Shown: positions 10,410-57,346 of the stretch, in pieces | How the letters are laid out: each line of letters begins with the position of its first letter | Numbering within the stretch: position 1 is the stretch's first letter | Source: Branchiostoma lanceolatum | Taxonomy: Eukaryota; Chordata; Leptocardii; Amphioxiformes; Branchiostomatidae | Direction: 5' to 3' | Length of the DNA stretch: 64,000 bases | NCBI RefSeq assembly: GCF_035083965.1 | Contig: NC_089723.1 | Span: 34,351,193 to 34,415,192 of the forward strand | Notes under the pieces: generated by a model | What the model was told of the DNA's origin: nothing | The model's input: the letters and a program-made list of their open reading frames with translations, nothing else | Databases searched by the model: none | Position numbers and translations under genes: made by a program

Positions 10410-13400
10410 ATGGCTGCTTCTGTGATTCTTGTAGTCTGCTGTCTGTCTCTTCACAGTGTGTTCGGCGTCCAGACGGTTGGTAAGTCATTGTTTTTTTTTC
10501 TTTCTTGAGAGTAAAAGAGAAGTTTTTTTTTTCTTTCTTGAGAGTAAAAGAGAAGCCTATGTTCGTTTTTGGTTTGGATCTGATTAAGAGAGTGAGGTAG
10601 ATGAAAGGACGGCATCCGGCACCGTGCTTTTTTTTTCTGCATAGAACTTAAACATATTTCTTTCCATTGCGAAAAAACAAGACAAGAAATTAAGAAAAAA
10701 ACTGGAAAGGCTACATTTTCGCGGAAATGCAGGATATTTCCCTCCCATAGGAAGCACGAAACGCCGCTGTTGTTTATTCAAGCTATTCATATGTCCGATA
10801 TGAAGTCCCTACCATTAGCCAGAAAAATAGGAAGTTGCTACATAAATTATGTAAATGAGGTCCTCATTAGCATAACACGCATTCCTCTGTATTCACTTTT
10901 CCTAAAGCTACCTACACCTCCAATGTAACATCCATCGCATTTAGAAATATGAAATTTCTGCATAGCTTATGCAAATGAAGTCCGCATTAGCATAACACAC
11001 ATTCCGTTGTCATCCCCTTTCCTAAAGCTATCTACACCTCTAATATGACACCCGTAGCATTTACCATAATGGAAATACTATAAGTTTTTGCATTAATCGA
11101 GCTACCACCTACGTCTACTTGTTTTGTTTTTTTTTTGGCAAAAGAAGAAAGAAGAAGAACACACCAGCAAAAACAATGTACAGTGTATTTCCCCCATACC
11201 CTATACAGGGTATAGGGTGGGGAAGATAATGATAGGCTAGGCCTTAATACAGACAGATTTAAAATGTTATCTGTTGCGGAAACAAGATTTAGTAGTCTAC
11301 TAAGAGCTTCAACTTGTACGTGCTGTTGAGTAGTTCAAACGCAGAAGGCTGGAAGACATGAATCAGGTTTTATTTTCACAGTCAGTTCACTTACATGTAA
11401 CTGTAATGTGGTGGTAAGTATTAATTATAAAAGTCATATCTGTATCTAAAGGAAAACAATACCGCAATGTTGCGAGTCCTACCAAGGAGTTTAAAGAGAG
11501 ACCTGTTCACATTTAAGATTTGTATAAATCACAGGAGCGATATTTGCTCGTAAATACAGGCACGTATCTGCTTTTCCCGTCATCTTGCAGCTCTCTTAAT
11601 CGAACCATGACAGCAAGGTAGGAAACCGAACACTGCTTGCTTGTCATGTGGGCGAAAGTTAAAGTTAAAGTGGATGTATTGTCTGTGGGAATAGATTTCT
11701 ATCAGAATGTTAGGCTCAAACAGACATCCTGCAGCGTTTGCTTGGGCAGAGTTGGACTGCTGCACTTGTCTGCTTCTTGCTGTGCATATCCAACACTGAT
11801 AACTATGTCTATGTTTTCTACTATACAGACATTGATGAATGTCAGATCATCCCAGACTTGTGCCAGAATGGCACCTGTATCAACACCGTGGGCAGCTATC
11901 GTTGTAAATGTCCGACTGGCTTCCAGTTCAGCTCAGACTTACTCATATGTGAAGGTAGGGACATGTTTATTTTGTATCTTATAGTCTATTTCATTGTTAG
12001 AATTTTACATACAAGTGAATATTTGGGAAGTGTCAGAATACTCTTGGGTCCTACAACTGTCTCTGTTATGATAGCTTCAAAATGACAACAATACCTGCAT
12101 AGATAACACTAATGATTGTTAATAAGAAAATAAGACTTTTGGTCTACTGAAGTGTACACCACCTGATCTGCTGTAAGACTAGATGAGATAAAGTAGATTC
12201 AGAAATATTCATAATGTCAAAATGAATTGTCTTAAGGTCAGAAGAACTATATTTACCTTTACCTGCCCTGTACAGACATGAGGAAGAGTTTCTGCTATGC
12301 TATGGTGGCAAAACTTCCCTGGCAAAATTATTCTCCCCATAGCCAGCGTAGCTACAGTTAGTCTGGTAGAGACTATACATTTAGTAAAAAAATTACTTTC
12401 CCTGTTCAGAGATGAGGGAGAGTTTCTGCTTTACCATGGTGAGGGAAGGACAGTGCCAGAACCCGACCAGCGTTAACCTGACGGAGAGGATTTGCTGCTG
12501 TTCGGTGGGGACCGGCTGGGGGGAACCCTGCGTAGCCTGCCCTGTGGAAAGGACTGGTAAATATCTTACCTAGATGTTAGTATTAGTAGATCAAGAGACG
12601 TTCAGAAAAAAAGGATCTGGGATTGATTTACCTATGACACAGTATATCAATAAAAGCATATCCTGTACTTGTCCTAACATAAATATGAATTATCAGACTC
12701 TCTATATGACAAACAATCTCTACGTGCCAACTGACTGAGCTAAAGAGACATCGCTATTTCATCTCCATTTTTAAAGATACCTAAAGTTTAAATCTCACTA
12801 CACGGTACCATTTTATTGGTCACTTTTTGTTCATTTTCTTAACAAATTAGTTCCTTTTTGTGTAATTTATGTGTTATATTTATGTGCCAACTATCTATAG
12901 TCAGCCATGAGCATGGCAAAATGCGATCGTCTGCATGGCCTTGCATGAAGCGCCCCCTGGCGAGGTGCCACTTGTCTGCAGCTCGGACGAAAAGGAAGGG
13001 TGGACAGAATGGAGGACATCTAATACCAGGCACAATGCCAGCAACTGCATGGCGGTTGCGTGGCAAAAATACAAAAGGCTGTAGCTGCCAGCTAAATTAG
13101 TACTGTAAGCCTCTTATCTGTATCCTGTACATGTCTTGGCAATTAACCAGAAACCTGTTTGCAGGATGTCGGTGTGGCTGTTTCTATTTTCAGATGCCTT
13201 CAGGGAATTATGTGGTTCAGATGAGAAGGGCATAGTGATGGGTCCTGAACCGGGACTTCCCATTGGTAAGTATTTGCCAAAGGGCTCATTTCCTACTTGC
13301 ATACTTGCGACATGGGATACAAGTTGGACAAGAGTGGTGCCAACTGTACAGGTTTGGTTTACATTTTTCTAGGATGTATGCTGTTGGAGAAGTGTATTAA

Positions 13401-16400
13401 ATGTCTCTTCACATCACTGTTTCATCGAATCAATTTAAGCTGATATTCGTTAATTTTGTTATTTCCTTTATGAGAGATGTAAAGCCCCTATCTGTTGGCG
13501 ACTAGAACTGGCGATGACTTTGGAAGTTTTCGACATTTTTTTTCTTGCGGTCACACTGACGCGTGACGCAGTTGCGAATGAAGCCCCGCTGAGCGGGCTA
13601 TTGGAAATCGCAGTGTTTTCACTGAATAAGAAATCAATGCAAAGTGACTAAAATGCATTAAAAAAATATTTGCAGTGATAAAGGGACGTTCACTTATAAT
13701 ACTTCTAGTGCAACATGAGTAACATATTACAAAATACTAGAGTTCCACGACCCAATACCTTAGCCAACTGAGCTTTTTTGAGTTGCATATAAATGTTTTC
13801 CATTTATTATGCAAATAAGGACCATACTTGCATGAATTAAGTCAGTTGATCATCTTGTATACCCAAACAACATAAGTTGTAAAGTATGAAAGTCTTATCT
13901 TAGCAAAGAAGGCTATTGTGGCATTTCCCTCATAAATTAGTTAAATGAGGCCCTCATGTACTTGATTTATGTTCGATAATGTTCACATCTACTTAGCTTC
14001 CAAATGCTGCAAGAACGAAATCCCCATCATTTACCATTATGCAGGTATAGTTTTTTTTCTATTAATTATGCAAATTAGGTATTCATTTGCAAAATTGATA
14101 TCTATCGATATTCCTCTCTTCCTCAGTTACATATGTCACATATTTGAGAGTCCTAAAATGGAATGCATCGGATTTAACTATCCTCATCAAGTATACAAAT
14201 TAGCTACTGATTTGCACAATTAGCATATGATCTTTTCAGCCATCTCTCAAGCTATCAACATACCAAATATCATGACGATCCGTCAACCCTTTCTTGTTAT
14301 TTCCTTTCAAAGTTTGAAACAAAATCGGCTCCTGAAGTTCCAAAAGCTTCTGGGGGTCCAAACCAACCAACTTACTCCCCCCCCCCCCCCCAAGAGCTAT
14401 ATACCACCCAAACATCATGACCATAGCATATTCAGAACACGGAAGTTCCGCAGTAGTATCCATAGCAAGACACTAGGGTGCCAAAATCTAATTTTGAGGT
14501 CTCAAGAAGAGCCACGCACGTACCAAGTATCATGACAATCCATCCAGGCATTCTCGAGTTGTTGTGTTCACACACAGACACACACACACACACACACACG
14601 AACGAAAACATTAACCTTCTCGGCGAAGGTAATAAGCATAACCTTAAAAGACTTTTACAATGCCAGAAATGACCAAAACAAACTGACACGAAGCATATAC
14701 AAGACTTCAATCTATTATGTGGTTTGTACTATGACTGTGTTTGTAGATTTATCAGAGCAAACAAACCTTGAAACTGACTTTAATATTACTTTTCACGGAA
14801 TACATGACGCCTAGACTTTGTAAACTTACAAATCCAATACTGTAGCATTTCAAATGTCAATGCCTGCACTTTTATACTGATACATAGATGCATGTATCTC
14901 TGTTTTTCTCTCATAATCATGTGAAAACATAATCATTTGAAGTATCCTACTATGCACGATTCCCCGCACCACACAGTCGGCCAAGGTTTTACAATTGTGC
15001 CTCCTAGCGGCAAAAGTCATTTACCGCAATGTATGACTAGATTTCTAGTGACGAACTTTATTCTGTGCTGGACGTCCAGTGACTGGATATGTTCTCACTG
15101 ATTTGGCTGTATCTACAGGGTGTTCGGATAACAACCAGCAATGTAAATATTGGGCCAGCATTGGTGAGTGTGCCGCCAACCCCGACTACATGCTAACGCA
15201 ATGCCAGCTGAGCTGCAACACATGTGATGGTGGCAATGGAGGCAACAACAAAGGTAGTAACTCACATTTTCAATATCCTATATCGTAATGTAAGGAAGAC
15301 GTGCTGTGATTTGGGCCCCCTATTAGCTTGCTCTTGAACTGAAGGGGCGGTGTTGTCAAAATCTTTCAAGGAGAATAACTAAAGAATGGAACGACGGATT
15401 GCCATCATATTTAGTATGCAGGCAGCTTAGACAGAGATTTACACGATAAAGTGCAAGTTATGCAAATTTGAACTTAACTGGTAAATGATTGGAGTGTTAA
15501 CATTGGGACCTGTGTTATTCAGTTTAAGGTGTACATGGCCAAGCATACATTATGCGAAAGTCATTTGCATAATCAAAATATTTCATGGAGATCTGAGGTC
15601 CCCGAACTCTTGTTGATATAGTTTAAACCTTTATTCCAAAGCTATTGAACGGGGTTAGTCTCCAGTCCTCTCCTTATAGAGTGACAGTTCTGTCTTTGTC
15701 TTTTCAGGGGTCTCTCCTTCGCGAGATTGGCAAGGGTTTGCCTGGCCTTGCGGCCTCCCTCGATCCAGCCCCTTGCGGAAGAGGTTCTGGGAACGTTTCC
15801 GTCCCAAAGCAACCACGGTCCCACCGACCACAACACCCCTGCTGACTACGACAGCGACCGAGACCACCACACCGTTACCAGCCCACGACAGTGCGGCGGT
15901 TGGTCTTTGTGACACCAAAGAGTTCAGTGACTCACTCTCGTGTAAGCTGGAGCGCGAATATCCAGACATTCAGGACGGTCTTCTCACCAAGTTCGGCGAA
16001 AAGTTGTTCCTGGAGCCCAATCGGCAGCCGGCGGGGGCGGACGGCGCGGGGAAGAAGTCGTGCGGCACGAGGAGAATTCCGACTTTACACGACAAGAAAG
16101 GGGAAACACTCGGCATTGATGTTGGACTTCCCGACGTAGAGTGTGAAAGATTGACGCCTACATTACTGAAGCCAGACTCTGGAGCTGAAAGAGAACAACA
16201 TAGCTGGGGCCCAGAACCCTTCTTCAACCCGTGCGGGTACTCCGCCAACATGGTGTCCCCGATCCACGCCGTGACAGTCAGCGGAGAGACGGTGGAACTC
16301 TGGGCGGGGACACAGAGAGGAGTTTTCCGGCAGCAGAAGTTCCGCGAGGTCAAGTGCACCAGTTCCACCCCCAACCACCAGGGCTGCGAGGGCAAGTGCG

Positions 16401-16510
16401 TGGAGGAGAACACGTGGCACAAGGCCATCGTGGTCAAGTCCGGGGACCCGCCCGAGGTGGGCTGGGACATGATCGTGGTCAAGGGTAGCTGTAGCTGTCA
16501 CGTGATCTAA
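10410..16510 (+). CDS. Gene 1: secreted cbEGF-TB-ShK-cystine-knot protein
   Basis: Six exons, all phase 1: 10410-10479 (signal peptide [19 protein letters not shown]), 11829-11954 (calcium-binding EGF starting DIDEC), 12410-12556 (fibrillin/LTBP-type TB domain, with CCCS and [10 protein letters not shown]), 13194-13265 (linker FRELC, as follows TB in fibrillins), 15119-15253 (ShK/ShKT, six Cys, [10 protein letters not shown]) and 15708-16510. Predicted length is 450 aa. The last exon encodes a basic stretch ([10 protein letters not shown]), a Thr/Pro-rich hinge, a pro-region with two Cys pairs, and a C-terminal cystine knot: C-x40-C-x9-C-x3-C-x30-C-S-C, which matches the neurotrophin pattern apart from a shortened third spacing. 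A secreted growth factor-like or matrix-tethered ligand is inferred; TB and cbEGF modules bind pro-growth factors in LTBPs. The C-terminus is ...SCSCHVI. A small extra exon could be missed in the long introns. Confidence 0.75.
10840..11110. repeat. Tandem AT-rich repeat (TTATGCAAATGAGGTCC type)
   Basis: Two or more tandem subunits containing TTATGTAAATGAGGTCCTC, ATTAGCATAACAC and ACATTCC in intron 1 of gene 1. The same repeat is at about 32790-33010 in block B and related sequence recurs at 13780-14240. It is probably debris of a dispersed family. Confidence 0.6.
12016..12345 (+). pseudogene. Vestigial EGF and TB exons
   Basis: About 60 bp after the functional EGF exon lies a second EGF-exon-like sequence (12016-12105) related to 21429-21521, with frame damage and lost cysteines. 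At 12276-12345, behind an intact acceptor, the start of a second TB exon is readable ([10 protein letters not shown]), but it then diverges and hits a stop. Both show that the gene once carried more modules. Block B has the same relics at 33858-33950 and 34134-34200. Confidence 0.6.
13780..14640. repeat. Dispersed repeat ending in CTTCTCGGCGAAGGTAATAA
   Basis: A non-coding repeat in the intron before the ShK exon. It contains repeated phrases such as ACCAAATATCATGACGATCC and ends in a (CA)n tract and CTTCTCGGCGAAGGTAATAA, a short hairpin. The same family occurs at 35640-36480 (block copy), 48980-49790 and partly 23340-23960. The class is unknown; it is probably a non-autonomous element. Confidence 0.65.
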
Positions 16511-16611
16511 CCAGGAAGCGATGGTGCATATTGGGGCTTCTAATACCGAATATAATTTCATCAGGTTGGTAGATAGAACATAGGATATAGGAAATTCTTT
16601 TTTTCACAACC

Positions 16612-16664
16612 AGTAACTCTCACCTGCTGACGTTTCGGTGTCTGTCAGACATTTTCCTCAGAGA
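16612..16664 (-). ncRNA. Hammerhead ribozyme-like motif, inverted copy
   Basis: On the minus strand, CTGAGGA (plus 16655-16661) and CGAAACGTC (plus 16629-16637) frame a weaker stem II. It is the inverted counterpart of the motif at 17420-17470, and together they bracket the GIY-YIG remnant. Confidence 0.6.
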
Positions 16665-17419
16665 CAGAAAAAAAAGAGTAAGAAGCAAGAGGAAAAGTCT
16701 AGAGGTATGGTGACTATACCATACATCAAAGGTGTCACAGAGCCTTTGGAAAGAGTGTTCAGAAAACACAACATTGCCACTGCAGTAAGACCCATAACAA
16801 CACTGAGGAGCCTGCTAACACCCTACAAGTTAGAGGGCCCAGCCAAAACAGAAAGTGTGTACAAGATTCCATGTAAGAGCTGTGAGGAAGTGTTCATTGA
16901 TTGATCTTTATTGACACAACAAAAGCACAGCGACTTTCGTAAGGTCTACTACATACATACATACAAAGTTTAACGAATAGGTGCATACAAATGAGTTTGA
17001 TTACACACAATCATATGGGATAGAGCAACATGTCAAAATATCACATGTCATAGGTGAAACAGGAAGGACCTTTGGGACAAGACTAGAGGAACACAAAAAG
17101 GAAGCTGACAACATCCATGCATGTAAAGTACACAAGATCCCAGAAAAGACATGCACAAAAAGAAGAGAAGAAGTCTGCAGGCACAGACCACATGGTTAGA
17201 CACAACTGCGTCATAGACTGGGAGGGGCCAAGGTAATACAGAGCTAGAGAGGACAATAGGCGTATCCGGTGGATCAAGGAAGACGTCTGGGTAAGGAAGC
17301 CGACACCAGTGATGAACCGGGACGGGGGGGATACAAGCTTAGCCACGTTTGGGACAGTGTTCTCACCGCAAAAGCGCCACCTACCTCGGCTACTTATAGC
17401 GGTGAGAAGCAGTACTCCA

Positions 17420-17470
17420 GTCAGAAGCTCTGAGGAAGGTGTCTGACAGGCACCGAAACGTCAGCAGGTG
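17420..17470 (+). ncRNA. Hammerhead ribozyme-like motif of the Penelope-like element
   Basis: CTGAGGA at 17430-17436 is followed by stem II (GGTGTC/GGCACC, loop TGACA), GAAAC at 17455-17459 and the GTC cleavage triplet. A short stem I (GCT/AGC) flanks the core. This order, CUGANGA - stem II - GAAA - minimal stem III - GUC, is that of type I hammerheads known in Penelope-like terminal repeats. Activity was not tested. Confidence 0.7.
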
Positions 17471-17725
17471 AGAATTACTGGTTGTGAAAAAAACTCCTAT
17501 ATCGGGTGTCCTGGTAGTTGTGTCCAAAGAGGTACCCTATGAAATGGCCAATACTCTGATGCAACGTTGACCAAAGAGGACGAAAGAGACTCGACAGTCA
17601 TAATACTAGTACTAGCAGGCTTGATTTGGATAGCGTATACGCATTACGTTCTGCCGACGTGCTGGTGAAACAAATGTACAGGAGGCAGAGTTGGCTTGCG
17701 AAGAGACCGAGGAGATACCTTAAAC

Positions 17726-17731
17726 AATAAA
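17726..17731 (+). promoter_or_regulatory. Candidate poly(A) signal of gene 1
   Basis: AATAAA lies in sequence homologous to the AATAAA just after the gene 6 stop codon (52264). In gene 1 it is ~1.2 kb past the stop because the Penelope-like remnant lies between. The block B equivalent is 39617-39622. Confidence 0.45.
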
Positions 17732-18597
17732 GCCACACAACAATGCGTCGCTATGGAGTACGGTGAGTTAATAGGAGTCTGATAAGACCCGGGTCGAGAA
17801 GGGCCTCGGTCTTAATTAACAGTGCCACATATTGTGCGGAAAGTGCGCCGTATTATAATTTGTAGAAAAAGTGTCACGGACTCGATGTCATGTGTATTAA
17901 ATGTATGTGGTGTAACTGCTAGCTTATGGTTTTCATTTATTGTCCTTCCATTGAAATTTTCTCTCATGTATGTAACCCCCGACCCGTCATTGTCAACAGG
18001 AGTCGAGAAAATACAATGACAAGAGAAAAACCATCTGACACTGTAATTGCAAAGTAGGCCATCTAGAAAAGCAGTAAAAATAAAGATGCTGAATCATGTG
18101 CCCTGTCTGAAACAATTTGAAACATGTGCTGTATAAACAGACTTATCCTGATTTATTTCCAGAACTTCTGTGTTTACTTGACTTGACTACATTACGTTCT
18201 GTGTACCAAGTCTAATATCACAGAGGATTGACGTTGTGCTGTACCTTTATCAAATGAAAGACGTATCAAAGTTAACTTTCACGGCTTTACGTGGTGTCCA
18301 AACTATACGTTTATAGCAGCTACCACTATCTTAGACCTTGAGTAAAATCCTGACAACTGCAAGACTTTGTTCCAGCCAGGGGAAGTTGTTCCCTGTTTTG
18401 TCAGGAAGTTACCTCATCTCACCTCACCTCACCTCACCTATCCCTTGACTTCTTAAATGTCAGGAAGTTAGCGCCATCAAAACATTGGCGCGTTGATTGA
18501 CGGTTCGCCAGATGGCGTGTTTGGCCTCTACATAAACGGCTGTGTCAGCACGCCGTCTGTTGTTCAGAACCATCACTTTGCTAGGCGCACGCTCAAC

Positions 18598-21500
18598 ATG
18601 GCTGCTTCTGTGATTCTTCTCGTCTGCTTTCTGTCTCTTCACAGTGTCCTCGACGTTGGTAAGTCATCGGTTGTATCATTTTGTTTCTTGGGAGTAAAAG
18701 AGACGTTTATTTGGACGTATGCCCGTGTTTGGATAAGACGTTTAAAGAGAGCGAAGTAGATGGAAAGACGGCACCGTGCCATCGAGTTCATTTTGCTTTC
18801 GCAATTTCAAGTATACTTGCGTTTAAACATTAAACAGCCGTCGTCAAATCATTTAGGTCTCTGTACAATTTTCAATTTTAGCTGATGCTGGTATTTGTGC
18901 ATGGAACTTACGTATTTCCTTCCATTACGAAATAACAATACTTGAAGTTAAGATGAAAAGTAGGCTTAATACAAACAGCTTTAAAACGCTGTCTGTTGTC
19001 CAAAACAAATTTAAGCAATCTACAAAGAGCAGGTGGTATCGCTCTGCTGACTTCAACTTCAACTTGTACGTGTTTATGTGAGTAGTTCAAATGCACATGG
19101 CTGACAGACATGAAGCAGGTTTTATTTTCACAATTAGTTAACTTAACTTACATGTGGTGGAAAATATTCATGATAAAAATCATGTTTGTATCGAAAGGAA
19201 AACAATACAACAATGTTGCGAGCACTACCAAGGTGGTTGAAGAGAGACCTTTTCACACTTAAAAGATATGTATAAATCATAGGCGCGATAGGAATGGAGA
19301 TAAATCTCACCGGAACAGCACAGTGCAGACTCTGGTTTGGCATTCCAAATGCAATCATGGGACACTTACTAGGCAGCTAGATTCAAATCTTAGAACTAGC
19401 ATTTAAATAATTTGTCCTTCTTAATGTGTAGCTCCGTCTTAGACAGCGTTATATTTGTAACTGTATTTAATGATGATACCATGGCAATATGTTGAGCTTG
19501 ATTGTTACAATTCTATTGATACCAAGACCAATGGCGGGGATAGTCTCCACTCCTCTGCTTGGAGACTGACAATTTCGTCCTTTGTTTTTGGTTAAAGGGG
19601 TTGCAGGGATCTCTCCTCAGCGAGACAGTGACCGCGGACTGGGGTTTCCCTGGCCTCGTGGCATCCCTCGGTCCAACCCCATGTGGAAGAGGTTCTGGAA
19701 CCATTTCTCGAGGGAAAAGATAGCTGCCCTCCGTGTTTCTATAGGTGAGGGAACAAGGCTTCTCCTCCTTTACATTTGGGCCTGCATGTGTAAGGAGCGA
19801 CACCTATAGCTGCAGTGCACAGTGAACCAGTCAGAACTGGACTGAAGAAGGTGACAGACGGTCACCGAAACGTCGGTTGAATAAAACCTTGTTACTTGGC
19901 TGTGTACAAAGAAATATTTTTATTCATTTACCTTCTGTGTGGTGTGTTCAGGACACGTTAGGTCCGGGCATAACTGTTTCGTCAAATCAATTTGAGCGGG
20001 CATTCGGTAATTTTATAATTTTCCTAATGAGAGATGTAAAGGCACACTTCTCCCGTGAGAACATTCACAATTTAGCTCTCTTTACTATGTGATTTGTAGG
20101 CATTCATTCTTGCTACCTTTTTTTGTTGTTGCAATCATTCCAATATAAAGATTCTGATATCCCTTGCCCATTGCTAGACCCCAGGAAAGGGCCTTGCTTC
20201 CTTTATGATTACTATGATTACGAGGAGCGAGGAAAGTACAGGTGTGCTCTGGGCTTGAAGTGGGACATGTCCCGGGCGGCCTGCTGCTGCAGACAGGGAC
20301 AAGCCTGGGGAGACCCGTGCAAGCCCTGCCCTACCGTCAACTCAAGTAAGTCCATAAATTCCCAAGGACTCTTAGAGGTAATGCGTTTAGAACAGCGTAG
20401 TTAGTCTGGTAGAGACCAGGCGCTTTCAAGGGTACCTTTCCAACAAGTCTGGTAAACTATGCTTCGGTGGATCAAAACTTGAAGACATCGACGCCTCAAG
20501 GAGAATGGTAAGAAATTATGACAATGTTTTATGTTGCCCTCATGTAACAAATATTTGCATGCGGGCTACCACTCCACTAGACAGCGATGGACGTTAAGTC
20601 AGATTGCATATTGTATGGCCGACAAGCTAAGAAATATATATATATAGTGTGGGATAACTGTAACTGTTCTCCAGAAGGTCTCCTTGTGTTTGTGCTCACC
20701 AGTCTTCAAGCGTACCAGATTAGATTGAAGATAAGGTGTAATAGGTTGCCATGTCCCTAAGCAAAGAACTGCTCTAGATCTATGGCGAATGTAATGAAAT
20801 GTTATAGACTGTGTCTCATGCACATGTATGTCATTGTGTTTCCTTTGCAGCTGAATACAATACACTGTGTCCTGGTGGCCCTGGCCCTCACTTTAAAACC
20901 AATGACCTCTCTTACGATGTGTCAGGTAAGGTTTTGAAAACTGCTTTTCATCATTTTTATCATCAACCTTGAACAGGTTGAAAATTTATTAGGATGAATT
21001 CAATATTCAATGTCTCATGGCTAATCTATATGCTGTTATCTATTGCTATAGCTGTTATTTCACAAATGTCGCCAGTGTGATCTGTATATCTTTAAATCTA
21101 CAGATTACGATCAGTGTATGTTGTCGGAGGGCGTGTGCCAGGGTGGCACGTGCGTCAACACGTTTTTCAGCTACACCTGTGACTGTCCACCTGGCTTCAC
21201 GTTGGACATATACTCCCGCACCTGCAATGGTTATGTCATGTCTTATTTCATTTTGATTAGTATACTATTAAGTCTCATACAGTTGTTCACTGTTACATTT
21301 TAGTTGATAGCTGTATATATACACTTTACGAGTATGGATGTTTTACAATACAAGATATTGAAGTGTGCAGATAATGATATGGTTGTCAGTGACCGTTTCT
21401 ATTTGATTGTTAGAATTTTACGAACAAGTGAATATTTGTGTGAAGTGACAGAATACTCTTGGACCTTACAACTGCCTCTGTTATGATGGCTTCAAGATAA

Positions 21501-24500: not shown

Positions 24501-25193
24501 ACGATATCGTTTTAATGTAAAAATACGTTTATCGAAGACGTATTTTCGCTATTTAAAAGCACGTTTTTAAATACGATATTTTGACACGGAAATGATGCCA
24601 TAGCTGTAGACGAATTAAGTTTATCTAAGGAACATTTTCAGTACGAAGTTTGACACGGAAATGATGCCATGGGCTTAAATAGCATTTCATCACAGATTGA
24701 CTTTCCCTTAGATAGTGTTTCCTTGTGTGTAACGTAATTGTCCTACCTGTTATGTGTTAATTCTATGAATATAGTTTATTCTGTGCGGTTTTTAACATCT
24801 ACGTTCATAATTGAGCCCCTTATGGTACCGGTGTGCTCGCAGATTGTATCGGATCAATCAATAAACAAATATGTTACATCAGATTTAGTAGTTCAATTGA
24901 CGATACGTCAGGTAAAGCTACATTCTTCTCTTTCAGGAACGTGCGGACTACCGTCGTTTCGCCCCGAACCCCGGACTGGTTGTGCTCCAGGAGACGACCT
25001 GGCCAACCCCCCTGGTGTTACCCTCCAGGCCTGTGCAGACGCTTGCTGTAACGACTCGAGATGCCTGTCGTTTCAGTACAACGTACACAACCAATGTTAT
25101 TTGAAAAGCAAACTTTGCTCTGCTGGGGAGAAACACTTTACATTAGCCGGCAACATGTACGATCGGATTGATTTACCAGGTTGGTGCATTTAG
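18598..25193 (+). CDS. Gene 2: secreted TB-EGF-PAN-hevein-like-PAN protein
   Basis: Phase-1 exons: 18598-18658 (signal peptide [17 protein letters not shown]), 19598-19744 (basic linker with [10 protein letters not shown], homologous to the start of the knot exon of gene 3), 20151-20345 (TB domain, [19 protein letters not shown]), 20851-20925 ([12 protein letters not shown], as follows TB in fibrillins), 21104-21229 (EGF), 22651-22893 (PAN/apple-like), 24022-24201 (hevein-like, [15 protein letters not shown]), 24843-24911 (short [11 protein letters not shown] exon) and 24937-25193 (PAN, stop TAG). This model gives 450 codons plus stop. PAN and hevein-like folds bind proteins or carbohydrate (chitin-type sugars). 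No intact cystine knot follows; a decayed knot tail lies at 25593-25760. The donors at 21230 (GTTATG) and 22894 (GTTGGT) are weak, so shorter products are possible. A splice from the last PAN exon into the gene 3 knot exon would also keep frame. Confidence 0.6.
19825..19880 (+). ncRNA. Hammerhead ribozyme-like motif beside a truncated knot exon
   Basis: CTGAAGA (19842-19848), a perfect stem II (GGTGAC/GTCACC with loop AGACG), CGAAAC and GTC. Stem I is weak. It is most likely a solo terminal repeat of a Penelope-like element. It lies ~100 bp after the donor at 19745, where similarity to the knot exon stops. The block B copy is 41710-41768. Confidence 0.65.
21429..21521 (+). pseudogene. Broken second EGF exon of gene 2
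   Basis: A 93-bp phase-1 exon-like stretch encodes the second half of an EGF module ([14 protein letters not shown], then NDC) but has an in-frame TGA where block B has TGT (Cys) at 43308-43400. The 5' half of the EGF is absent in both. It is probably skipped. Confidence 0.6.
22473..22513. repeat. (ATTGT)n microsatellite
   Basis: A pentanucleotide run about 40 bp long just upstream of the first PAN exon. The block B copy at 44338-44366 is shorter, so the locus has changed length since duplication. Confidence 0.9.
22990..24591. mobile_element. Foldback-like element enclosing the hevein-like exon
   Basis: Two ~350-bp arms in inverted orientation: 22990-23334 (starting ATTTCCGTGTCAAAATATCG) and 24239-24591 (ending in the complement). 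They are rich in ACGATATCGT palindromes. The core holds the 180-bp hevein-like exon at 24022-24201 and a repeat-bearing stretch at 23335-23985 that block B lacks. No transposase was seen. Whether the exon was captured by the element or the arms formed around it cannot be decided from sequence alone. Confidence 0.7.
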
Positions 25194-29177: not shown

Positions 29178-29277
29178 CCAAAAATAGTTACTCAAGCAAC
29201 TGGATAAAATTTTGAAAGTTGCTTGAGTAACTATTTTTGGCGTATCTTTCTACCTGGATGTCTAACCTTCATCAACT
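29178..29277. mobile_element. 100-bp insertion with 14-bp target duplication
   Basis: An element containing the inverted pair AGTTACTCAAGCAACT / AGTTGCTTGAGTAACT, flanked on both sides by TATACGTTCATATC (29164-29177 and 29278-29291). The equivalent site before gene 6 (about 50230) is empty. The long target duplication fits retroposition by a LINE-type machinery. Confidence 0.75.
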
Positions 29278-46400: not shown

Positions 46401-47380
46401 TAATGGCCTACGCGCTATCATACATATACGTATATTTACTTGTTCTTAAGCTATTTAACGTACGTTTTATAATGCGATGCTTCGATACAGACTGTGCATT
46501 TTAGAGAGTCGATTCAATGATACCATATGAAAAAAATCGTCTGAATTGCAATATTGTATACCTGATGACGATAATGTAATGTCCGTTTCATAACGATATC
46601 TTAGTAAAGTGGATTTTGTAGCGTATAACGCAAAATAACGATATCTTAGTCCCGAGACGATATCGTAGACGTAAAACGATATCGTTTTAATGTAAAAATA
46701 CGTTTATCGTAGACGTATTTTCGCTATTTAAAAGCACGTTTTTAAATACGATATTTTGACACGGAAATGATGCCATAGCTGTAGACGAATTAAGTTTATC
46801 TAAGGAACCTTTTTCAGTACGAAGTTTGACACGGAAATGATGCCATGGGCTTAAATACCGAAGCTGATAACATTTCATCACAGATTGACTTTCCCTTAGA
46901 TAGTGTTTCCTTGTGTGTAACGTAATTGTCCTACCTGTTATATGTTAATTCTATTAATATAGTTTATTCTGTCCGGTTTTAACATCTAAGTTCGTAATTG
47001 AGCCCCCTATGGTACCGGTGTGCTCGCAGATTGTATCGGATCAATCAATAAACAAATATGTTACATCAGATTTAGTAGTTCAATTGACGATACGTCAGGT
47101 AAAGCTACATTCTTCTCTTTCAGGAACGTGCGGACTACCATCGTTTCGCCCCGAACCCCGGACTGGTTGTGCTCCAGGAGACGACCTGGCCAACCCCCCT
47201 GGTGTTACCCTCCAGGCCTGTGCAGACGCTTGCTGTAACGACTCGAGATGCCTGTCGTTTCAGTACAACGTACACAACCAATGTTATTTGAAAAGCAAAC
47301 TTTGCTCTGTTGGGGAGAAACACTTTACACTAGCCGGCAACATGTACGATCGGATGGATTTACCAGGTTGGTGCATTTAA
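40485..47380 (+). CDS. Gene 5: block B copy of the TB-EGF-PAN-hevein-like-PAN protein
   Basis: Phase-1 exons: 40485-40545 (signal peptide), 41485-41631 (basic linker), 42040-42234 (TB), 42730-42804 ([11 protein letters not shown]), 42983-43108 (EGF; the first residue pair is GY instead of DY), possibly 43308-43400 (half EGF, open here but with the last Cys changed to Tyr), 44003-44071 (69-bp exon, open here), 44503-44745 (PAN), 46196-46375 (hevein-like), 47030-47098 (69-bp exon) and 47124-47380 (PAN, stop TAA). As in gene 2 the knot is decayed (47780-47947). The first PAN exon and its downstream flank are closer to the second PAN unit than to the block A counterpart. Function is inferred as in gene 2: a secreted, carbohydrate- or protein-binding modular protein. 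Confidence 0.6.
41710..41768 (+). ncRNA. Hammerhead ribozyme-like motif, block B
   Basis: CTGAAGA at 41729-41735, stem II GGTGAC/GTCACC, GAAA at 41754-41757 and GTC. The core is unchanged from 19825-19880. Confidence 0.65.
43308..43400 (+). pseudogene. Half EGF exon of gene 5 (open but incomplete)
   Basis: A 93-bp phase-1 exon-like stretch with splice-like borders. It reads open ([15 protein letters not shown]), but the final cysteine is Tyr (TAC for TGC) and the first part of the EGF is missing, so a normal fold is unlikely. Confidence 0.5.
44880..46765. mobile_element. Foldback-like element around the hevein-like exon, block B
   Basis: The left arm is split by an insertion (44880-44906 and 45870-46159) and the right arm is 46413-46765. 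The 180-bp hevein-like exon at 46196-46375 fills nearly all of the ~250 bp between the arms, because the 650-bp stretch present in block A is absent here. Confidence 0.7.
44907..45869. mobile_element. piggyBac-like non-autonomous element (block B only)
   Basis: A ~960-bp insertion with inverted ends ACCCTCATACACCCGAAC / GTTCGGGTGTATGAGGGT. An internal palindrome GGGGTCAAAAATGACCCC lies near each end. There is no transposase. CCCT-type termini with a GGGGTCA motif recall piggyBac-type MITEs, but the flanks (TGAA / TTAC) are not an intact TTAA duplication, so the class is tentative. It is absent at the same site in block A, so it was inserted after the duplication or lost from A. Confidence 0.7.
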
Positions 47381-47779
47381 TCAAGTCATGGCAGCATTTA
47401 TTAGAGGGGAACTTAACAGCAGAAGCTGTAGACGAATTAAGTTTATTTAAGGAACCATTTCAGTACGACATTTTGACACGGAATTGATGCCATGGGCTTA
47501 AATACCGAAGCTAATAACATTTCATCACAGATTGACTTTACCTTAGATAGTGTTTCCTTGTGTGTAACGTAATTGTCCTACCTGTTACATGTTAATTCTA
47601 TCAATATAGTTTATTCTGTCCGGTTTTTAACATCTAAGTACGTAATCGAGCCCCCTTTAATGCTATGGTACCGGTGTCCTCGCAGATTGTATCGGATCAA
47701 TCAATAAACAAATATGTTACATCAGATTTAGTAGTTCAATTGACGATACATCAGGTAAAGCTACATTCTTCTCTTTCAG

Positions 47780-47947
47780 GAACCACGGTCCCACCGACCA
47801 CAACATCCCAGCCCACTACGACCACGACCGAGACACAAGGTCATCGTGGTCAAGACCGGGGACCCACCCAAGGTTGGCTCGGACATGATCTTGGTCAAGG
47901 CTAGCTGTAGCTGTCACGTGATCTCACCCAAGCTCGATCGCGAATAG
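47780..47947 (+). pseudogene. Cystine-knot exon remnant, block B
   Basis: Same hinge-to-tail join as 25593-25760, with further decay (Trp to Ser in the WDM motif, ILVKAS). The hinge frame stops at 47904 and the CSC frame at 47945-47947. Confidence 0.8.
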
Positions 47948-50466
47948 TGGGAGTTCAGTTAGTTGTGCCCAAAGAGATACCTTATGCAACGGCCATTACT
48001 TGGACTGTGGTGCAACGTTGTCCAAAGAGGACGAAAGAGACTCGGCAACCATAATAGGTTTGGATAGCGTATGGGGAAACAAAGGTACAGGAGGCAGAGT
48101 TAAATCGTGAGGAGACCGAGGAGATCACTTAACAATATAGCCGGTCACGCGAGAATACGTTACCGTGGTGAGTCGATAGGAGTTTGAGAAGAGCAGAGTC
48201 GAGAAGGGCCTCGGTCTTGATTAACAGTGCCACATATTGTGAAGAAAGTGCACCGTATTTAAAACTAGAGTTCCACGAACACATTATCTTCGCCAAATAA
48301 TCAAGGCTTATTATGGATAGTGATTAAGGCTTTAATATCACCACCTGCAAATTTGATCATACACCATACTGTTTGGAAGATATGAGGGGGGGGGCAGTCT
48401 AGATAGGGTTAAAAATCATTTGGTGGTACAGGACTGCCACATGAGGTCACATCCCCCGTGAATGAGAACACTGACAGTCATCTTCGACTTCGAAGGACTA
48501 CCAAGGGTACAGGACTAACTATGTGTCTAGTGTGCAGATATATGTTAAAACTGGTCATAAAAACATAAGAGTATGTTGATATTACATGGGCCACAAAGGT
48601 TTGATATTGCAGTGCCGTAAGTTGAAAGTGATGATGAAATGATACAGTCAATATATGTGAATAGAATAAATCTTTATTACATATCATACAAATTTTGAAA
48701 GACATAGTAAATATGACTTTTCCTTACCTAGCAGTGGTGCAGTTTTGGAGCAGTGTACTCTCCAAACAGGACAGTGGGTCCGGCAGGTTTTTGACGTGTT
48801 TTTTGGTGTTTTTGTCGGACTTTCTATTTTGTCCCCTTTTTGTTATGTCGCCAACGTGCTTTGGACAAAAATGCCTAAACTAAACACGTGAAAAACCAGC
48901 CGGACCCACACCTCTGCTTGGAGAGTAGTGCTGTGCTCCATTTGTTTATATGACCTACTTTTGCCAGGCCATCTGTTTATATGACCTGTTTACGAAGACA
49001 CTGTCACATGTTTGAGAGTCCCAATATGAAATGCAGCGGATTTACTAACTTTCCTCACTAATTATGACAATTAGCTCCAGATTTGTATAATCATTCGTTG
49101 ATTATGTAAAGCACTATCTGAGCTATCTACATACCAAACATCACGGCGATCTGTCGACCCCTTCTAAAGTTATTCATGTCCGAAGGTCAAAACAAAAACA
49201 CCCACTGCATTTCCAAACAAGCCGCTAGGGGGCCCAAATTTACACAACTTACTCCCTTTGGCATGAACTATCTACCACAAATCATGACCATATTACTTGC
49301 AGAAAATATGCCCTCAAATTTTGAAGCTCGGCTGAGTACCTTAGGTACCCCCTAGAAGGCCCATTATCGAACTTGATCTTCCTTTCTGTAAACACTACCC
49401 ACCCACTAAATATCATGCAGAACCATCGACAGCTTCTCGAGTACCCGCTGCAGTACCGACGGAAAATGCCAGGGGAACCATTTTTGAACTTGACCTCCGT
49501 TCTCACAACCGCTATTCACCTTTAAAAAAATCATGAAGATCCATCAACGTTTCCGTCACTTTTTTTGCCTACATACGAACACACAAAAATGCAAAGTCCG
49601 CTGCAGTACTGTTGGAAAATGCCAGGTAAACCATTTTCGAACTTGACCTTCCTTTGCACAACCACTACACACCTACCGAAAATCATGAAGATCCATCAAA
49701 GATTTCTCAAGTTATGCTCTTGACATACCTACAGACCCACCCCTCAGCTGGCGTAAACGAAAACATAATCTTCTCGGCGAAGATAATAAAGTGCCACCCA
49801 TTGTAAAAAAAGTGTCTCGATAACATGTGTGTTAAATGTATGTGGTGTAATTGCTAGCCCTTGTTTTTCATTTATTGTCCTTCCAATTGCGATTTTTCCC
49901 CGCCCCGTCATTGTCAACAGGAGTCGAGATAAAATGCAATAAAAGACCATCTGACACTGCAATTGCAAAGTAGGCAAAGGCCCATCTAGAAAATCCGTAA
50001 ACATTAAAATGCTGAATCATGTGACTTGTCCACAACAACAGGAAACACGTGCAGTATAAACAGACTTATCCTGCTTTATTCTGAGAACTTCTGTGTTTAC
50101 TTGACTTGACTACTTTCATTACGTTCTGTGTACCAAGTATAAGATCACAGAGGGTTAACGTTGGGCTGTACCTTTATTTAATGATAGACGTATCAAAGTT
50201 CACTTTCACGGGTTTACGTGGTGTCCAAAATATACGTTCATAGCAGCTACCACTATCTTAGACCTTGAGTAAAATCCTGACAACTCCAAGACTTCGTTTC
50301 AGCCAGGGAAAGTTCTCTCCTGTTGTGACAGGAAGTTAGCGCCATCAAAACATGGGCCCGTTGATTGACGGTTCGCCAGACGGCGTGTTTTGCCTCTACA
50401 TAAACGGCTGTGTCAGGACGCCGTCTGTTGTTCAGAACCTTCACTTCGCTAGGCGCACGGCTCAAG
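47948..50466. other. Filler between genes 5 and 6
   Basis: 47950-48260 resembles the 3' tail of gene 6 (AGACCGAGGAGAT, GAGAAGGGCCTCGG) and is old 3' flank. 48280-48750 is unclassified. 48758-48925 is a MITE, and 48980-49790 is a copy of the dispersed repeat ending CTTCTCGGCGAAGATAATAA. 49790-50466 is the conserved upstream region of gene 6. No exon was found. Confidence 0.55.
48758..48925. mobile_element. Hairpin MITE with CTCTCC...GGAGAG ends
   Basis: A 168-bp inverted-repeat element. Its arms carry GTGGGTCCGGCAGGTTTTT and the complement, and its right end CCTCTGCTTGGAGAG is the same as in 6254-6466. TA flanks both sides, a possible target duplication. Confidence 0.75.
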
Positions 50467-52261
50467 ATGGCTGCTTCTGTGATTCTTCTCGTCTGCTGTC
50501 TGTCTCTTCACAGTATCTTCGACGTTGGTAAGTCATCGTTTGTATCATTTTGTTTCTTGGGAGTAAAAGAGAAAGGTTTGTTTGGCCCGTGTTTGGATTG
50601 AATCTGTTAGATGTGATCTTTTATATCTGTCGGAGTGGGTTAGATGGAAAGACGGCACCGTACCACCAAGCTACTTTTGCCGTTTTCGCAACACCAAGTA
50701 TACTTGCGTTTGAAAATGAAACAGCTGTCTATGTGCTATTTCCTATGTTAGCTGACGTTGTTTTTTTCGTGAGATATATGTCTGGATATTGCTGCATAGA
50801 GCTTAAAAGTGAGGAATTGTCTTTTACGAAATAACAAGACACGATGTTAAGATGAAAAGTAGGCTTCCTAAAACGTTATGTGTTGTGGAAACAGGTTTTT
50901 CAGTAGTCTAAAAGAAGCAGGTGGTACGGCTCTACTGAGTTCGACTTCGAGTTGTACGTGCTGTTGGCAGTTGTTCAAATGGACATAGCTGACGGACAAA
51001 ATGCAGGTTTTTTTTATCACAGATATCTGTGTAACTTTGCGGTAATGTGGTGATAAATATATATGATAAAGGAACTCTCATGTTTGGGTGTAAAAAACAG
51101 ATAACAGGATGTTGCGCTTACCGTAGTTCCAAAGAATTACCTCAGGTAACGACTAGTATCATGATACTTTATTAAAGAAATCTTCTTGTGCTTTATTGGT
51201 ATAGTGGAAAACCTTTATACCAAAGCTATTGAGGGGGACTAGTCTCCAGTTTTCTGCTTGGAGAGTGACAGTTTTGCCTTTGTCTTTTCTTTAAAGCGGA
51301 TGCCGGGATCTCTCCTTCGCGAGGACGTGACCGCAGACTCTCCCCCATCCGTCGGCCAGGGTTTGCCTGGCCTCGCGGCCTCCCTCGATCCAACCCATTG
51401 TGGAAGAGGTTCTGGGAACGTTTCCGTCCCAAAGAAACCACGGTCCCACCGACAACCACGGTCCCACCGACCACAACACCCCAGCCGACTACGACCGCGA
51501 CCGAGACGACCACACCGCCACCGTTACCAGCCCACGACAGTGCGGCGGTTGGTCTTTGCGACACCGAAGAGTTCAGTAACTCGCTCTCGTGTAAGCTGGA
51601 GCGCGAATATCCAGATATTCAGGACGGTCTCCTCACCAAATTCGGCGAAAAGTTGTTCCTGGAGCCCAATCGGCAGCCAGCCGGGGCGGACGGCGCGGGG
51701 AAGAAGTCGTGCGGCACGAGGAGAATTCCGACTTTACACGACAAGAAAGGGGAAACACTCGGCGTTGATGTTGGACTTCCCGACGTAGAGTGTGAAACAT
51801 TGAGGCCTACATTAGTGAAGCCAGGCTCAGAATTGGTCCCAGTTGTCCCCGGCGGTGCCCCTGACCCAGAAACCGCCTTCAACCCGTGCGGATACTCGGC
51901 CAACATGGTGTCCCCGATCCACGCCGTGACGGTCAGCGGGGAGACGGTGGAACTCTGGGCGGGGACGCAGCGAGGGCTGCTCCGGCAGCAGAAGTTCCGC
52001 GAGGTCAAGTGCACCAGCTCCACCCCGAACCACCAGGGTTGCGAGGGGAAGTGCGTGGAGGAGAACACGTGGCACAAGGCCATCGTGGTCAAGTCCGGGG
52101 ACCCGCCCAAGGTCGGCTGGGACATGATCGTGGTCAAGGCCAGCTGCAGCTGTCACGTCATCACGCCCAAGACCCTCTTCACGAAGAGGGGTGAAACACT
52201 GGGTGAAACAAGGGTGCAGGAGGCAGAGCTGGCTCGCGAGGAGCCCGAGGAGATGCCATGA
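50467..52261 (+). CDS. Gene 6: short secreted neurotrophin-like cystine-knot protein, block B
   Basis: Two exons, 50467-50527 (signal peptide [18 protein letters not shown]) and 51297-52261, phase 1; 341 aa. The order matches gene 3: dibasic pro-segment (SRGRDRRLSPIRR), [21 protein letters not shown] hinge, GLCDTEEF pro-region, and a knot with spacings 40/9/3/30/1 (NPC, VKC, GC, KC, SCSC). This copy keeps a longer C-terminal tail rich in Glu/Arg (CHVITPKTLFTKRGETLG... to EEPEEMP) that probably reflects the ancestral end. AATAAA lies 3 bases after the stop codon. The start codon context lacks the CAACATGG of its paralogues (CAAGATGG). A secreted dimeric ligand is inferred from the family pattern. 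Confidence 0.8.
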
Positions 52262-53920: not shown

Positions 53921-55005
53921 ATGAAGCTGTTTGGAGAGGCGACTGTTGTAGTCGTTGTGTCACTGCTCTGCGTCTGTCAAGGTACGTTTTCACTTCAGGT
54001 TTTAGACTGTAGACTAGTTGCAGCATAGGCTGTAGGCCTCGGAAGGAGAGTCTATATACTGTATATACCGAATATATACCGGGGTATCGGGTGATAGGCT
54101 GGGCGGATCCCGAACTTACCCGAAAGCCGACCTCGCCCGAAGTGCGCCCGAAGGGCGCTCGTAGGTGGGCGCCCGAAGGGCGCCCCACGGCGCCGCAGGC
54201 GCTAAGCGAATTCCTCGCGTAAGCGAGCGGCTGTCTCACATTGGACGACGGGGGGCCGTCGGGAGTATTTGCATAACTATGGGGTAGGATGTCTTACGCA
54301 ACTGCTCAGCGGGGAAGACAAACTCGCTATTGTTTTGAGTCCGCGGAGCTGAGGCCTACTGCCCATGGTTGCAGGGAATGGCCATTGAACGAACTGTTTA
54401 ATAGATATTCAATCTGTGAGACAACGTGCTCCTCTGATTTTCTAACCAATATTCTGGTGTCCACGTGCATGAGATAGACATAAGATGTTGCAGTCATACT
54501 AACATATGAGAAACTACACTGTTACGGTTAAAAATGCGATATAGCTTATACGATGATTTCAGATGGGTAGACAGTGTTTCAATTCGCCTTTATCGCATTG
54601 GTTCTAAGATGTACGTTTTCACGTTGAATTAATCATGTTGTCTATACGTACGTTCCCCGCGTATTCTGTACTTTTGGTACACTGCAACATCACGAAATGT
54701 TTTGTTTTTTTCAGGGCAAGGTAGAGGCAGACTTTCCTTTCCACGCATGCGCGGTCGCATGCTTCTGCCTGAGCCAGGCCTGCAGTTATGCCGTCCGTCG
54801 CCATGCGCGCTGCAGTGTGAGTATGGACGGGAGATCGACGCAAGGGGCTGTGCCGTTTGTAGATGTCAGGCAGGTAGGCATGAGGTCGCTACCAGTGAGT
54901 GAGTGTGTGTGTATGTGTGTGTGTGTGTGTGTGTGTATGTGTGTGCGCGCGTGTGTGTGTCTGTGTGTGTGTGTATGTGTGTGTGTCTGTGTGTGTGTGT
55001 GCGTG

Positions 55006-55088
<83 letters not shown>

Positions 55089-57346
55089 AATTAGAATCAC
55101 TGAGTATACGTAACTGTACTTAGCATAGATATAACTGCATAGTCTTACTTTGCAGTTTAGACTGTCAGAAATACACAAGTGACAAATTTTTAAATTTTGC
55201 TGATCATTGATTGTTTACACTTGCAGCTCCGGAGATACCCACCACAGAAAGCCCAGCAGACCTGGAGCAGACAGCCCCAGTGCCTCTAGATCTGACAACA
55301 GGTGATCACAGAATGAACATTTCCGAAATGTTTAAAGACTATCGGACAACTTGTTAGAAAATGTTTGATGCTCCCATGTATCATTAAATCTTACATGGTG
55401 TGTTATATAGACCGATAACGGCGCATAATGTTTGACCTCGATGTTACCATGAGTAATGATGGCATTGATGTAGACAATCTGTGAAAAGAAATCTTGCTTG
55501 GTTTTTCTCACAGTACCTAGCGACTTTGGCGAGTTCTGCAGGCAGGAGCAGAACAGTAACCTTTCCTCCTGCCTCCTGCAAAGTGAGCGACCAGACGACT
55601 TTACACACTACATCACCAGGTAACGTGGCGTCCCTTTCAGTGGCACTATTAGAACAACTAATGTTTGTATACCTCATAGTTGTGTCAAAATGTCAAAGCA
55701 GGGCACTTTTATATACCTGATGTCATGTAAGAACGAACATATAATAGGCAAAATATGTAGTCATGTTTACAAATGTTTCAAAAAGAGAGAAGAAACTACT
55801 AGGTGACCAACATTAGTTTAGCAATAGTTCTCAGTTTGTCTATCTTTTAGTTTTCCAATGTTAGAATGTAGCTGCTTATTAATTCATGTTTTGCATTATG
55901 CTTCTTATAGACCGCTTGTGGTCATATATGCATTTAGCCCATCTGGGCAGGAATATGCAATAAAGACTATTACTATTGATGTTGGTGATGTAAACATTGA
56001 AATTAAATCAGTAAAACGGGAAGTACACACTGTCTATTTCCCTCCATTCTATTTTTCACTTGCAGCTCTGTTTGATCCCCGTTCAACGTTTCGGACGAAA
56101 ATTTCAGCTATTTTCTTCATTTGTGTGCATCTATCAACGTTGTTTATACTTTAGGTTTGGACTGGATGCGTTTGGTGTTGACCCAGAGGACTACGCAAAC
56201 CTGACCGTTCCGCAGGGCAACGACACGAAGTACGTGTATTTGGAACCTTTACATGTCATGATAGGTTGAAGGCAGTGATGTTGGTGTCATACAGCAGGTT
56301 GGAAAAATGTACAAATGTACATCTATATGTATCTCGTTTGTGCTGTTGAGAAAGTACTAGACTGCTAACACATTTCTAAGAATACAATACTGACCAGTAT
56401 AGTATGTATATCTACAGAATTAAGTTGTTGCACGTTAGCGTTGAAAGATTCCTTCTGCGGCTCACATAAATCTACACAATAATACATCAATATCAAAACA
56501 TCTGTTTATTCTTTTCCTAGACTCTCCATCCATCCACAGAGCGGCCTAGAGTCCCTCAACCCGTGCGCGAGAGAATCCAAGTTTGTTAATCTCAGGACGG
56601 CCCGAAATCGGAAAGATGAGGAGGTACGTTTTGTATGGCTATTGTCAATGCTTTGGGGCAGATGAACAAAGTAGAGAAAGAGGTTCATGTGATTTTTATC
56701 CTAACTTCATACAAGCATGACAAGTTGTGAAGCATTTTCTTCTCAGCGAAAACATGCATCTATCTAATGGCTTGGTCACATACGACGTACGATCGTCGCA
56801 CGATCGCAAACTGAGGGCATTCCTGGGATAGCTGTGCATGTGTCGTACGAAATTCAGCTTCCTTGGTACCGAAAAGACTGTCATAAATCCTTTTCAGTGA
56901 TTGGCTTTTTGACGGCCTTCTAGACGACATCAAAATCATACGACGGTCTTCGACGAATGTGCCGCACCGTTTCCTAAGGAAGGTAAACATATTGACGAGG
57001 CGTCTGTCCAGAAAAAACGTTGTTCTACGAGCAAATATACATCATACTAGTAATATCTTTGATTTTTCTGACAACCCGACAATGGTCTATATGTCGTATT
57101 CAGGTTGAGCTGTGGGTGGGCTCGGACAGGAACGGACGCACCAAACTACAGCTGATGCACGAGGTGAGGTGCAGAAGCGCCACCCCAGTCCACCACGGCT
57201 GTGGTACTGCATCGGCCGGCGGATTCTGCACTGAGGAGAAAACTCTGCAGAGGGCGTACGTGATCTCCAAGGACACGCTGAAGCCGCGCCCGGACTGGAT
57301 CTATGTCAAAACAAGTTGCAGTTGTCACGTCGAGGGGTTGGGATAG
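53921..57346 (+). CDS. Gene 7: antistasin-cystine-knot secreted protein (neurotrophin-like)
   Basis: Seven exons: 53921-53981 (signal peptide MKLFGEATVVVVVSLLCVCQ), 54715-54873 (antistasin-like domain, CRPSPCALQCEYGREID, GCAVCRCQ), 55227-55301 (Thr/Pro/Glu linker), 55514-55619, 56155-56229, 56521-56623 and 57104-57346 (stop TAG). Phases are 1,1,1,2,2,0; 273 aa. The part from 55514 on aligns with the last exon of genes 1/3/4/6: FCRQEQNSNLSSC corresponds to [20 protein letters not shown] to NPCGYSA, and VELWVGSDRNG to [10 protein letters not shown]. Knot spacing is C-x41-C-x9-C-x8-C-x29-C-S-C (ending SCSCHV), very close to the published neurotrophin order. N-glycosylation sites NLT and NDT lie before the knot. 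Antistasin domains are serine-protease inhibitors; on a ligand precursor this may gate maturation (inference). It is a probable relative of the ancestral gene of the tandem family because it keeps introns in the knot region. Confidence 0.8.
54110..54240. repeat. GC-rich palindrome cluster
   Basis: Intron 1 of gene 7 contains several overlapping palindromes such as GCGCCCGAAGGGCGC, GGGCGCCC and CTCGCGTAAGCGAG within ~130 bp, in otherwise AT-rich surroundings. No coding or RNA gene match was recognised. Confidence 0.7.
54900..55086. repeat. (GT)n microsatellite
   Basis: About 190 bp of GT with sparse TATG and GCGC interruptions, 27 bp after the donor of the antistasin exon. Confidence 0.95.
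56771..56975. mobile_element. MITE-like repeat with GGTCACATA ends
   Basis: A ~200-bp repeat in the intron before the last exon of gene 7. It starts TTGGTCACATACGACG and shares AAACTGAGGGCATTC and CATACGACGGTCTT with 61021-61217. Confidence 0.6.

Follow-up and report, generated by a model that had tools for sequence, protein, structure and literature searches.

Predicted neurotrophin-related domains joined to fibrillin-type or antistasin modules in a tandem gene array of the lancelet Branchiostoma lanceolatum

The closest described relatives of the genes considered here are the neurotrophins. A canonical amphioxus member, Bf-NT, is reported as a single-exon gene on scaffold V2_138 of B. floridae (PMC3280201) and is described as being of the canonical type in the sections of PMC2772990 used here; the wording of the former paper leaves room for a second amphioxus type having been noticed. 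Residue marks that separate neurotrophins from Spaetzle are given in the same sections of Wilson 2009 (PMC2772990), where an aspartate at the position of Asp30 of nerve growth factor (NGF) is strict in all canonical neurotrophins. Here, we describe a stretch of 64,000 nucleotides of the B. lanceolatum genome (contig NC_089723.1, positions 34,351,193 to 34,415,192, assembly GCF_035083965.1; the window), which carries a local array of multi-exon genes. The C-terminal cystine-knot domain of five of them (g1–g4 and g7) is, on the evidence of sequence profile and predicted fold, homologous to neurotrophins.

The models of these five knot genes were built from splice signals; m1 and m2, introduced below, are knotless sisters. 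Positions are those of the window.

10410..16510, + strand: g1, 450 amino acids, splice-site model
10410-10479, + strand: g1 signal peptide, by eye
11829-11954, + strand: g1 cbEGF (Pfam EGF_CA)
12410-12556 and 13194-13265, + strand: g1 TB, two exons (Pfam)
15119-15253, + strand: g1 ShK (Pfam)
15708-16510, + strand: g1 last exon with mucin-like Thr/Pro stretch, pro region and knot
16223..16507, + strand: g1 knot (Pfam NGF below cut-off; model and fold match)
29506..31267, + strand: g2, 330 amino acids, splice-site model and relatives P0003, P0004 and P0005
29506-29566, + strand: g2 exon with signal peptide
30336-31267, + strand: g2 exon with mucin-like stretch, pro region and knot
30920..31204, + strand: g2 knot
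32392..38399, + strand: g3, second copy of g1, 453 amino acids, splice-site model
32392-32461, 33676-33801, 34255-34401, 35059-35130, 36999-37133 and 37588-38399, + strand: g3 exons
38112..38396, + strand: g3 knot
50467..52261, + strand: g4, second copy of g2, 341 amino acids, exons 50467-50527 and 51297-52261
51878..52162, + strand: g4 knot
53921..57346, + strand: g7, 273 amino acids, seven exons
53921-53981, 54715-54873 (antistasin), 55227-55301, 55514-55619, 56155-56229, 56521-56623 and 57104-57346, + strand: g7 exons

The joints of the gene models follow GT-AG, those of g1–g4 are all in phase 1, and none of the five models contains an internal stop. The g7 knot is split by a phase-0 intron, with its first cysteine in 56521-56623 and the remainder in 57104-57346. 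The g1 model is identical to the B. lanceolatum protein P0002 and the g7 model to P0006, both public as 'uncharacterized protein', and this exact agreement upholds the joining of modules to knot that an earlier note had proposed from the DNA letters. The models of g2 and g4 are supported by their open frame, by their splice sites and by the short-layout relatives P0003, P0004 and P0005. g3 is 95.6% identical to g1, and g4 is 91.3% identical to g2 across 323 amino acids, with a C-terminal tail unlike that of g2.

Above their Pfam cut-offs, g1 contains TB (54.7 bits), EGF_CA (40.6 bits) and ShK (29.7 bits), and g7 contains Antistasin (28.3 bits). The TB of g1 has eight cysteines, counted in the sequence, and is a complete 8-Cys TB. 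The modules of g3, which was outside the Pfam scan, are assigned through its identity to g1. No cbEGF, TB, ShK or antistasin is found in g2 and g4. The modules and the knot share one frame, TB, cbEGF and ShK being fused to the knot in g1 and antistasin in g7, and the list given earlier (cbEGF, TB and ShK; antistasin; or nothing) holds for g1/g3, g7 and g2/g4, respectively. The genes are open, and their products have a hydrophobic first exon and a last domain homologous to neurotrophins.

Eleven lancelet knots were compared: g1–g4, P0003, P0004 and P0005, and the g7 type represented by P0006, P0008, P0009 and P0010. The cysteine gaps are 40/9/3/30/1 in g1–g4, P0003 and P0004, 40/10/3/30/1 in P0005 and 41/9/8/29/1 in all four knots of the g7 type. 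For comparison, the gaps of mouse NGF were determined in the same way and are 42/9/11/27/1. All 11 knots therefore show the six-cysteine order of neurotrophins with near spacing, the gap of 3–8 being shorter than in NGF. On re-measurement the spacings first reported for g1–g4 and g7 are correct, while the frame start given for the g1 knot, 16207, is out of frame; the right frame is 16208-16507.

The profile similarity of the lancelet knots to neurotrophins is significant, and g7 reaches 27.5 bits against the Pfam NGF cut-off of 27. The predicted fold of the knot matches the neurotrophin fold, so that the suggested structure prediction and the sequence profile agree on a neurotrophin-like C-terminal domain. 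Among the 50 fold matches listed there are no PDGF, TGF-beta or glycoprotein-hormone chains, which is evidence neither for nor against these families. The tryptophan of VELW, offered earlier as a neurotrophin mark, aligns with a leucine of NGF, BDNF and NT3 (VTVL); it gives no support to kinship and was rejected. The neurotrophin Trp99 is the tryptophan of GWDMI and is retained in g1–g4. A regular expression for the cysteine spacing was likewise rejected as proof: it gives seven matches in six open reading frames (ORFs), two of them inside a TG-microsatellite ORF (54628-55113), and its match in g7 used an intronic cysteine, the real first cysteine lying in exon 6 (56521-56623). As the expression is unspecific, the claim is carried by homology and not by spacing.

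The genes could encode a Spaetzle-like immune ligand for a lancelet Toll-like receptor, the tandem copies and inhibitor-type modules reflecting defence. The Spaetzle profile match is below the Pfam cut-off and weak in three of nine members; when our profile was compared with two Spaetzle sequences, 10 and 57 of 2000 shuffles scored as high, and hhalign gives 0.6%. Position 133 is isoleucine in all 11 knots, the neurotrophin state, in place of the Spaetzle aromatic (the Aedes Spz row shows valine), and neither the Spaetzle Pro136 nor the extra cysteine beside the fifth knot cysteine occurs in any. We consider such an immune ligand quite unlikely.

Other positions bear on the receptor. Gln51, Glu55 and Ile102 are found in all 11 knots. 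Trp130 (NGF Trp99) is found in six; it is a tyrosine in P0004 and absent from the four g7-type rows. The NGF Asp30 position is threonine in seven knots and asparagine in the four of the g7 type, and aspartate in none. Trp21 and Arg103 are contacts to Trk, and both are missing in all 11, so that canonical binding to Trk is probably not how the knot is received. None of the 11 has an R-X-[KR]-R within 40 residues upstream of its first knot cysteine; RDRR occurs at residues 31–34 in g2 and g4 only. g3 alone has a weaker R-X-X-R (REER, residues 345–348), which lies 14 residues before the first knot cysteine and arises from a small insertion relative to g1 (exon 37588-38399). Neurotrophins are cut at about this place relative to the knot. 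From these motifs, g1 and g3 might be processed differently: where no strong furin site immediately precedes the knot, another protease would have to release it, or it would stay attached, and g3 with its weak site may differ.

An ordinary neurotrophin that acts via a lancelet Trk, with the modules as neutral additions, would be in line with the homology, with Gln51, Glu55 and Trp99 where they are kept, and with the position of REER in g3. The missing Trk contacts and Asp30, the lack of R-X-[KR]-R and the several coding exons speak against it, as does the single-exon canonical gene that amphioxus is already reported to have (PMC3280201), and we hold this to be very unlikely. Because of the residue marks and the absent R-X-[KR]-R, the lancelet knots are, as far as their sequences tell, a diverged relative of neurotrophins that is not canonical and has one Spaetzle-like residue.

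Two further genes of the same family, m1 and m2, lie among the knot genes and combine TB, cbEGF, PAN and WAP-like modules.

18598..25717, + strand: m1
18598-18658, + strand: m1 signal peptide
19607-19744, + strand: m1 RFW box
20151-20345, + strand: m1 TB
21104-21229, + strand: m1 cbEGF
22651-22893, + strand: m1 PAN
24022-24201, + strand: m1 WAP-like, by eye
24937-25179, + strand: m1 PAN
from 25593, + strand: m1 terminal exon, frameshifted knot stump
40485..47904, + strand: m2, second copy of m1 with the same modules and the same frameshifted knot stump

Of the knot exon, m1 and m2 retain merely this out-of-frame stump. The public protein P0011 ('fibrillin-3-like isoform X1') has the residues, module order and end of m2, and an additional exon makes its TB complete.

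Self-comparison of the window shows two repeat units with identical gene content and order.

8929..31214: repeat unit 1 (g1, m1, g2)
31450..52172: repeat unit 2 (g3, m2, g4)

The collinear blocks comprise 11.8 kilobases at 96.3% identity and others at 96.5, 93.5, 92.7 and 89.0%, and the units differ by 0.2–7.5% per full 500-base step. The synonymous divergence (dS) is 0.063 for g1–g3, 0.028 for m1–m2 and 0.217 for g2–g4. Since the g1–g3 and m1–m2 values do not exceed the rates reported for another lancelet (average synonymous rate 0.070–0.075, with a single-nucleotide polymorphism rate of 4.39%, PMC4284660), unit 2 could be an artefact in which the assembler placed the other haplotype of unit 1 in tandem, leaving two knot genes and g7. 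The divergence per step and the dS of g1–g3 and m1–m2 fit such an artefact; the g2–g4 dS of threefold that synonymous rate and the differing C-terminal tails do not, and because of them a true duplication is favoured and the artefact is rather unlikely. Each unit has a counterpart among public proteins (P0002, and P0011 with the m2 residues), from which it follows only that an assembly contains both. The count of four intact genes plus g7 made earlier stands in that five knot genes can be modelled, but it may reduce to two plus g7. The frameshift is common to m1 and m2, so that the knot was lost before the copying, provided that unit 2 arose by true duplication.

The g2–g4 dS (0.361 in the knot; 30336-31267 versus 51297-52261) is far above that of m1–m2 and far above the 4–6% difference in the three 500-base steps counted in the same block. 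This excess may reflect gene conversion or a segment whose parts differ in age. Within g1–g4 the knot is more conserved than the pro region, with ratios of nonsynonymous to synonymous divergence (dN/dS) over six pairs of 0.06–0.17 and 0.10–0.91, respectively.

All six genes of the two units resemble one another over about 250–300 bases around the first exon, which hints at shared control. A box rich in aromatic and basic residues (the RFW box in m1) is recognisable in g1–g4, m1/m2 and B. belcheri.

10239-10530, 18458-18712, 29317-29622, 32209-32507, 40344-40599 and 50231-50583 (approximate): alike first-exon regions, self-comparison
15708-15800, 30336-30470 and 19607-19744, plus copies in unit 2: aromatic/basic box

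The ORFs at 16617-16904 and 38506-38859 look like retroelement ends by eye, but a Pfam scan with an E limit of 0.01 matched nothing in them. The array is flanked on the left by a galactose-3-O-sulfotransferase (PF06990; 4986-6119, − strand) and on the right by UDP-glucuronosyltransferase pieces (PF00201; 58394-58735, 61633-61998 and 63519-63974, − strand), the middle one being below the cut-off.

A search for relatives restricted to cluster representatives gave four matches among 815 candidates. P0003 (B. floridae x japonicum) and P0004 and P0005 (B. belcheri) have the short layout of g2/g4, so that the proposed check for orthologues in other lancelets found relatives with a bare knot; among the representatives, neither g2 nor g4 has a B. 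lanceolatum cluster of its own, and these genes may sit within other clusters. In a tree of the 11 lancelet rows g1 groups with g3 (100/100) and the two knot types are apart (100/100), while g1–g4 are not shown as one B. lanceolatum clade (62/94). The bare-knot P0004 and the antistasin-type P0010 of B. belcheri are both on contigs of 1,612,448 bases, probably one contig, which makes the neighbourhood look old. Among the literature matches listed (titles and starts of abstracts, excluding spelling variants and paywalled papers), none joins a neurotrophin-like domain to TB, cbEGF, ShK or antistasin.

The family thus comes in formats built with phase-1 exons: bare (g2/g4), cbEGF-TB plus ShK (g1/g3), antistasin (g7) and knotless (m1/m2). 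On balance we lean towards a neurotrophin-superfamily branch in lancelets that includes anchored (g1/g3) and soluble (g2/g4) ligands. The proteins would be secreted and the formats would have arisen through exon shuffling. The knot would form a dimeric ligand as in neurotrophins, and the cbEGF-TB pair may bind the knot protein to a fibrillin-type matrix. g1/g3 would then act at short range as an anchored ligand and g2/g4 as a soluble one, on a receptor other than canonical Trk. Lancelets are reported to gain more than 10 domain pairs per million years, phase 1-1 exons being favoured (PMC4284660), and the anatomy of the array is what such shuffling would make; because shuffling is expected in lancelets, the fusion is less surprising.

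Several results pull in the other direction. The cbEGF-TB-ShK layout is seen in B. lanceolatum only (P0002 among the four matches), and it could be a passing by-product of exon shuffling. The suggested Pfam comparison, which placed g7 above the NGF cut-off, leaves g1, g2 and g4 below both cut-offs: NGF scores 18.4, 17.9 and 19.9 bits (g3 was not scanned), Spaetzle nearly ties at 17.4, 16.1 and 17.7 bits, and NGF is not listed for full-length g1 at E up to 1. The g7-type profile alone against BDNF falls within shuffles (12 of 2000 reach it). Confident models of the knot were obtained for only two of five, and the full-length g7 model, with a predicted local distance difference test score of 33, is unusable. 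Between the types, the g4–g7 knots have a dN/dS of 0.54 at a dS of 0.95. Pro13, Spaetzle-specific according to the sections of PMC2772990 used here, is present in eight of 11 knots and absent from three g7-type rows.

A matrix, clotting or barrier protein should also be considered. Its neurotrophin-fold domain would have a structural role, like that of horseshoe-crab coagulogen, and no receptor, and TB, cbEGF, ShK, PAN and antistasin would be usual components of a protein of this kind. We judge this unlikely. The branch with anchored and soluble ligands can be narrowed to a self-tethered growth-factor family, in which fibrillin exons were shuffled onto a diverged neurotrophin, with soluble and anchor-only sisters and a receptor that is not canonical Trk. 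This narrower proposal is tentative. If true, the ligand, its anchored version and forms serving as decoy or anchor would all lie at one locus. The genes provide a natural experiment on whether fusion to a fibrillin module turns a growth-factor domain into a signal bound to the matrix.

Compared with the vertebrate neurotrophins (NGF, BDNF, NT-3 and NT-4; PF00243), the lancelet knots share the cysteine order, the near spacing and the predicted fold, together with Gln51, Glu55 and Ile102 throughout and Trp99 in part. They differ in the loop between the third and fourth cysteines (3–8 versus 11 residues), in lacking the cleavage motif just before the knot, Asp30, Trp21 and Arg103, and in their extra modules. 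Unlike canonical neurotrophins, with a coding region in one exon, the lancelet genes have two, six or seven coding exons. Spaetzle (PF16077) is set apart by its aromatic 133, Pro136 and extra cysteine, and by a profile not above shuffles.

Bf-NT belongs to the same superfamily and the same subphylum as the array genes. Compared by its description, it is a single-exon gene, whereas the array genes have several exons and threonine or asparagine at Asp30; because of these differences the array genes are most likely distinct from it. Sea urchin NT2 has several exons, and the non-canonical NT2 and the acorn worm NTa/NTb have, like the g7 type, an asparagine at the Asp30 position (PMC2772990); they too are compared by description, and cbEGF, TB, ShK and antistasin go unmentioned in the sections of that paper used here. 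If kinship is confirmed, the multi-exon array genes and their B. floridae and B. belcheri relatives argue against loss of the non-canonical type.

Among sequences of solved structures, the cbEGF-TB of g1 is nearest to human fibrillin-1 (1uzj, E 4.4e-30) and then to LTBP1. In LTBP1, one TB domain out of two carries a pair of additional residues between cysteines six and seven, which we take to mark a TB that holds a growth factor; they are absent from the g1 TB, and for this reason it looks fibrillin-type, although the other LTBP1 TB domain also lacks them. The LTBP and fibrillin likeness suggested earlier accordingly stands for a fibrillin-type cbEGF-TB and falls for the growth-factor-holding mark of LTBP. 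With fibrillin and LTBP, g1 shares the pair of EGF_CA and 8-Cys TB; it differs from them in that the pair occurs just once and is joined to a domain resembling a ligand.

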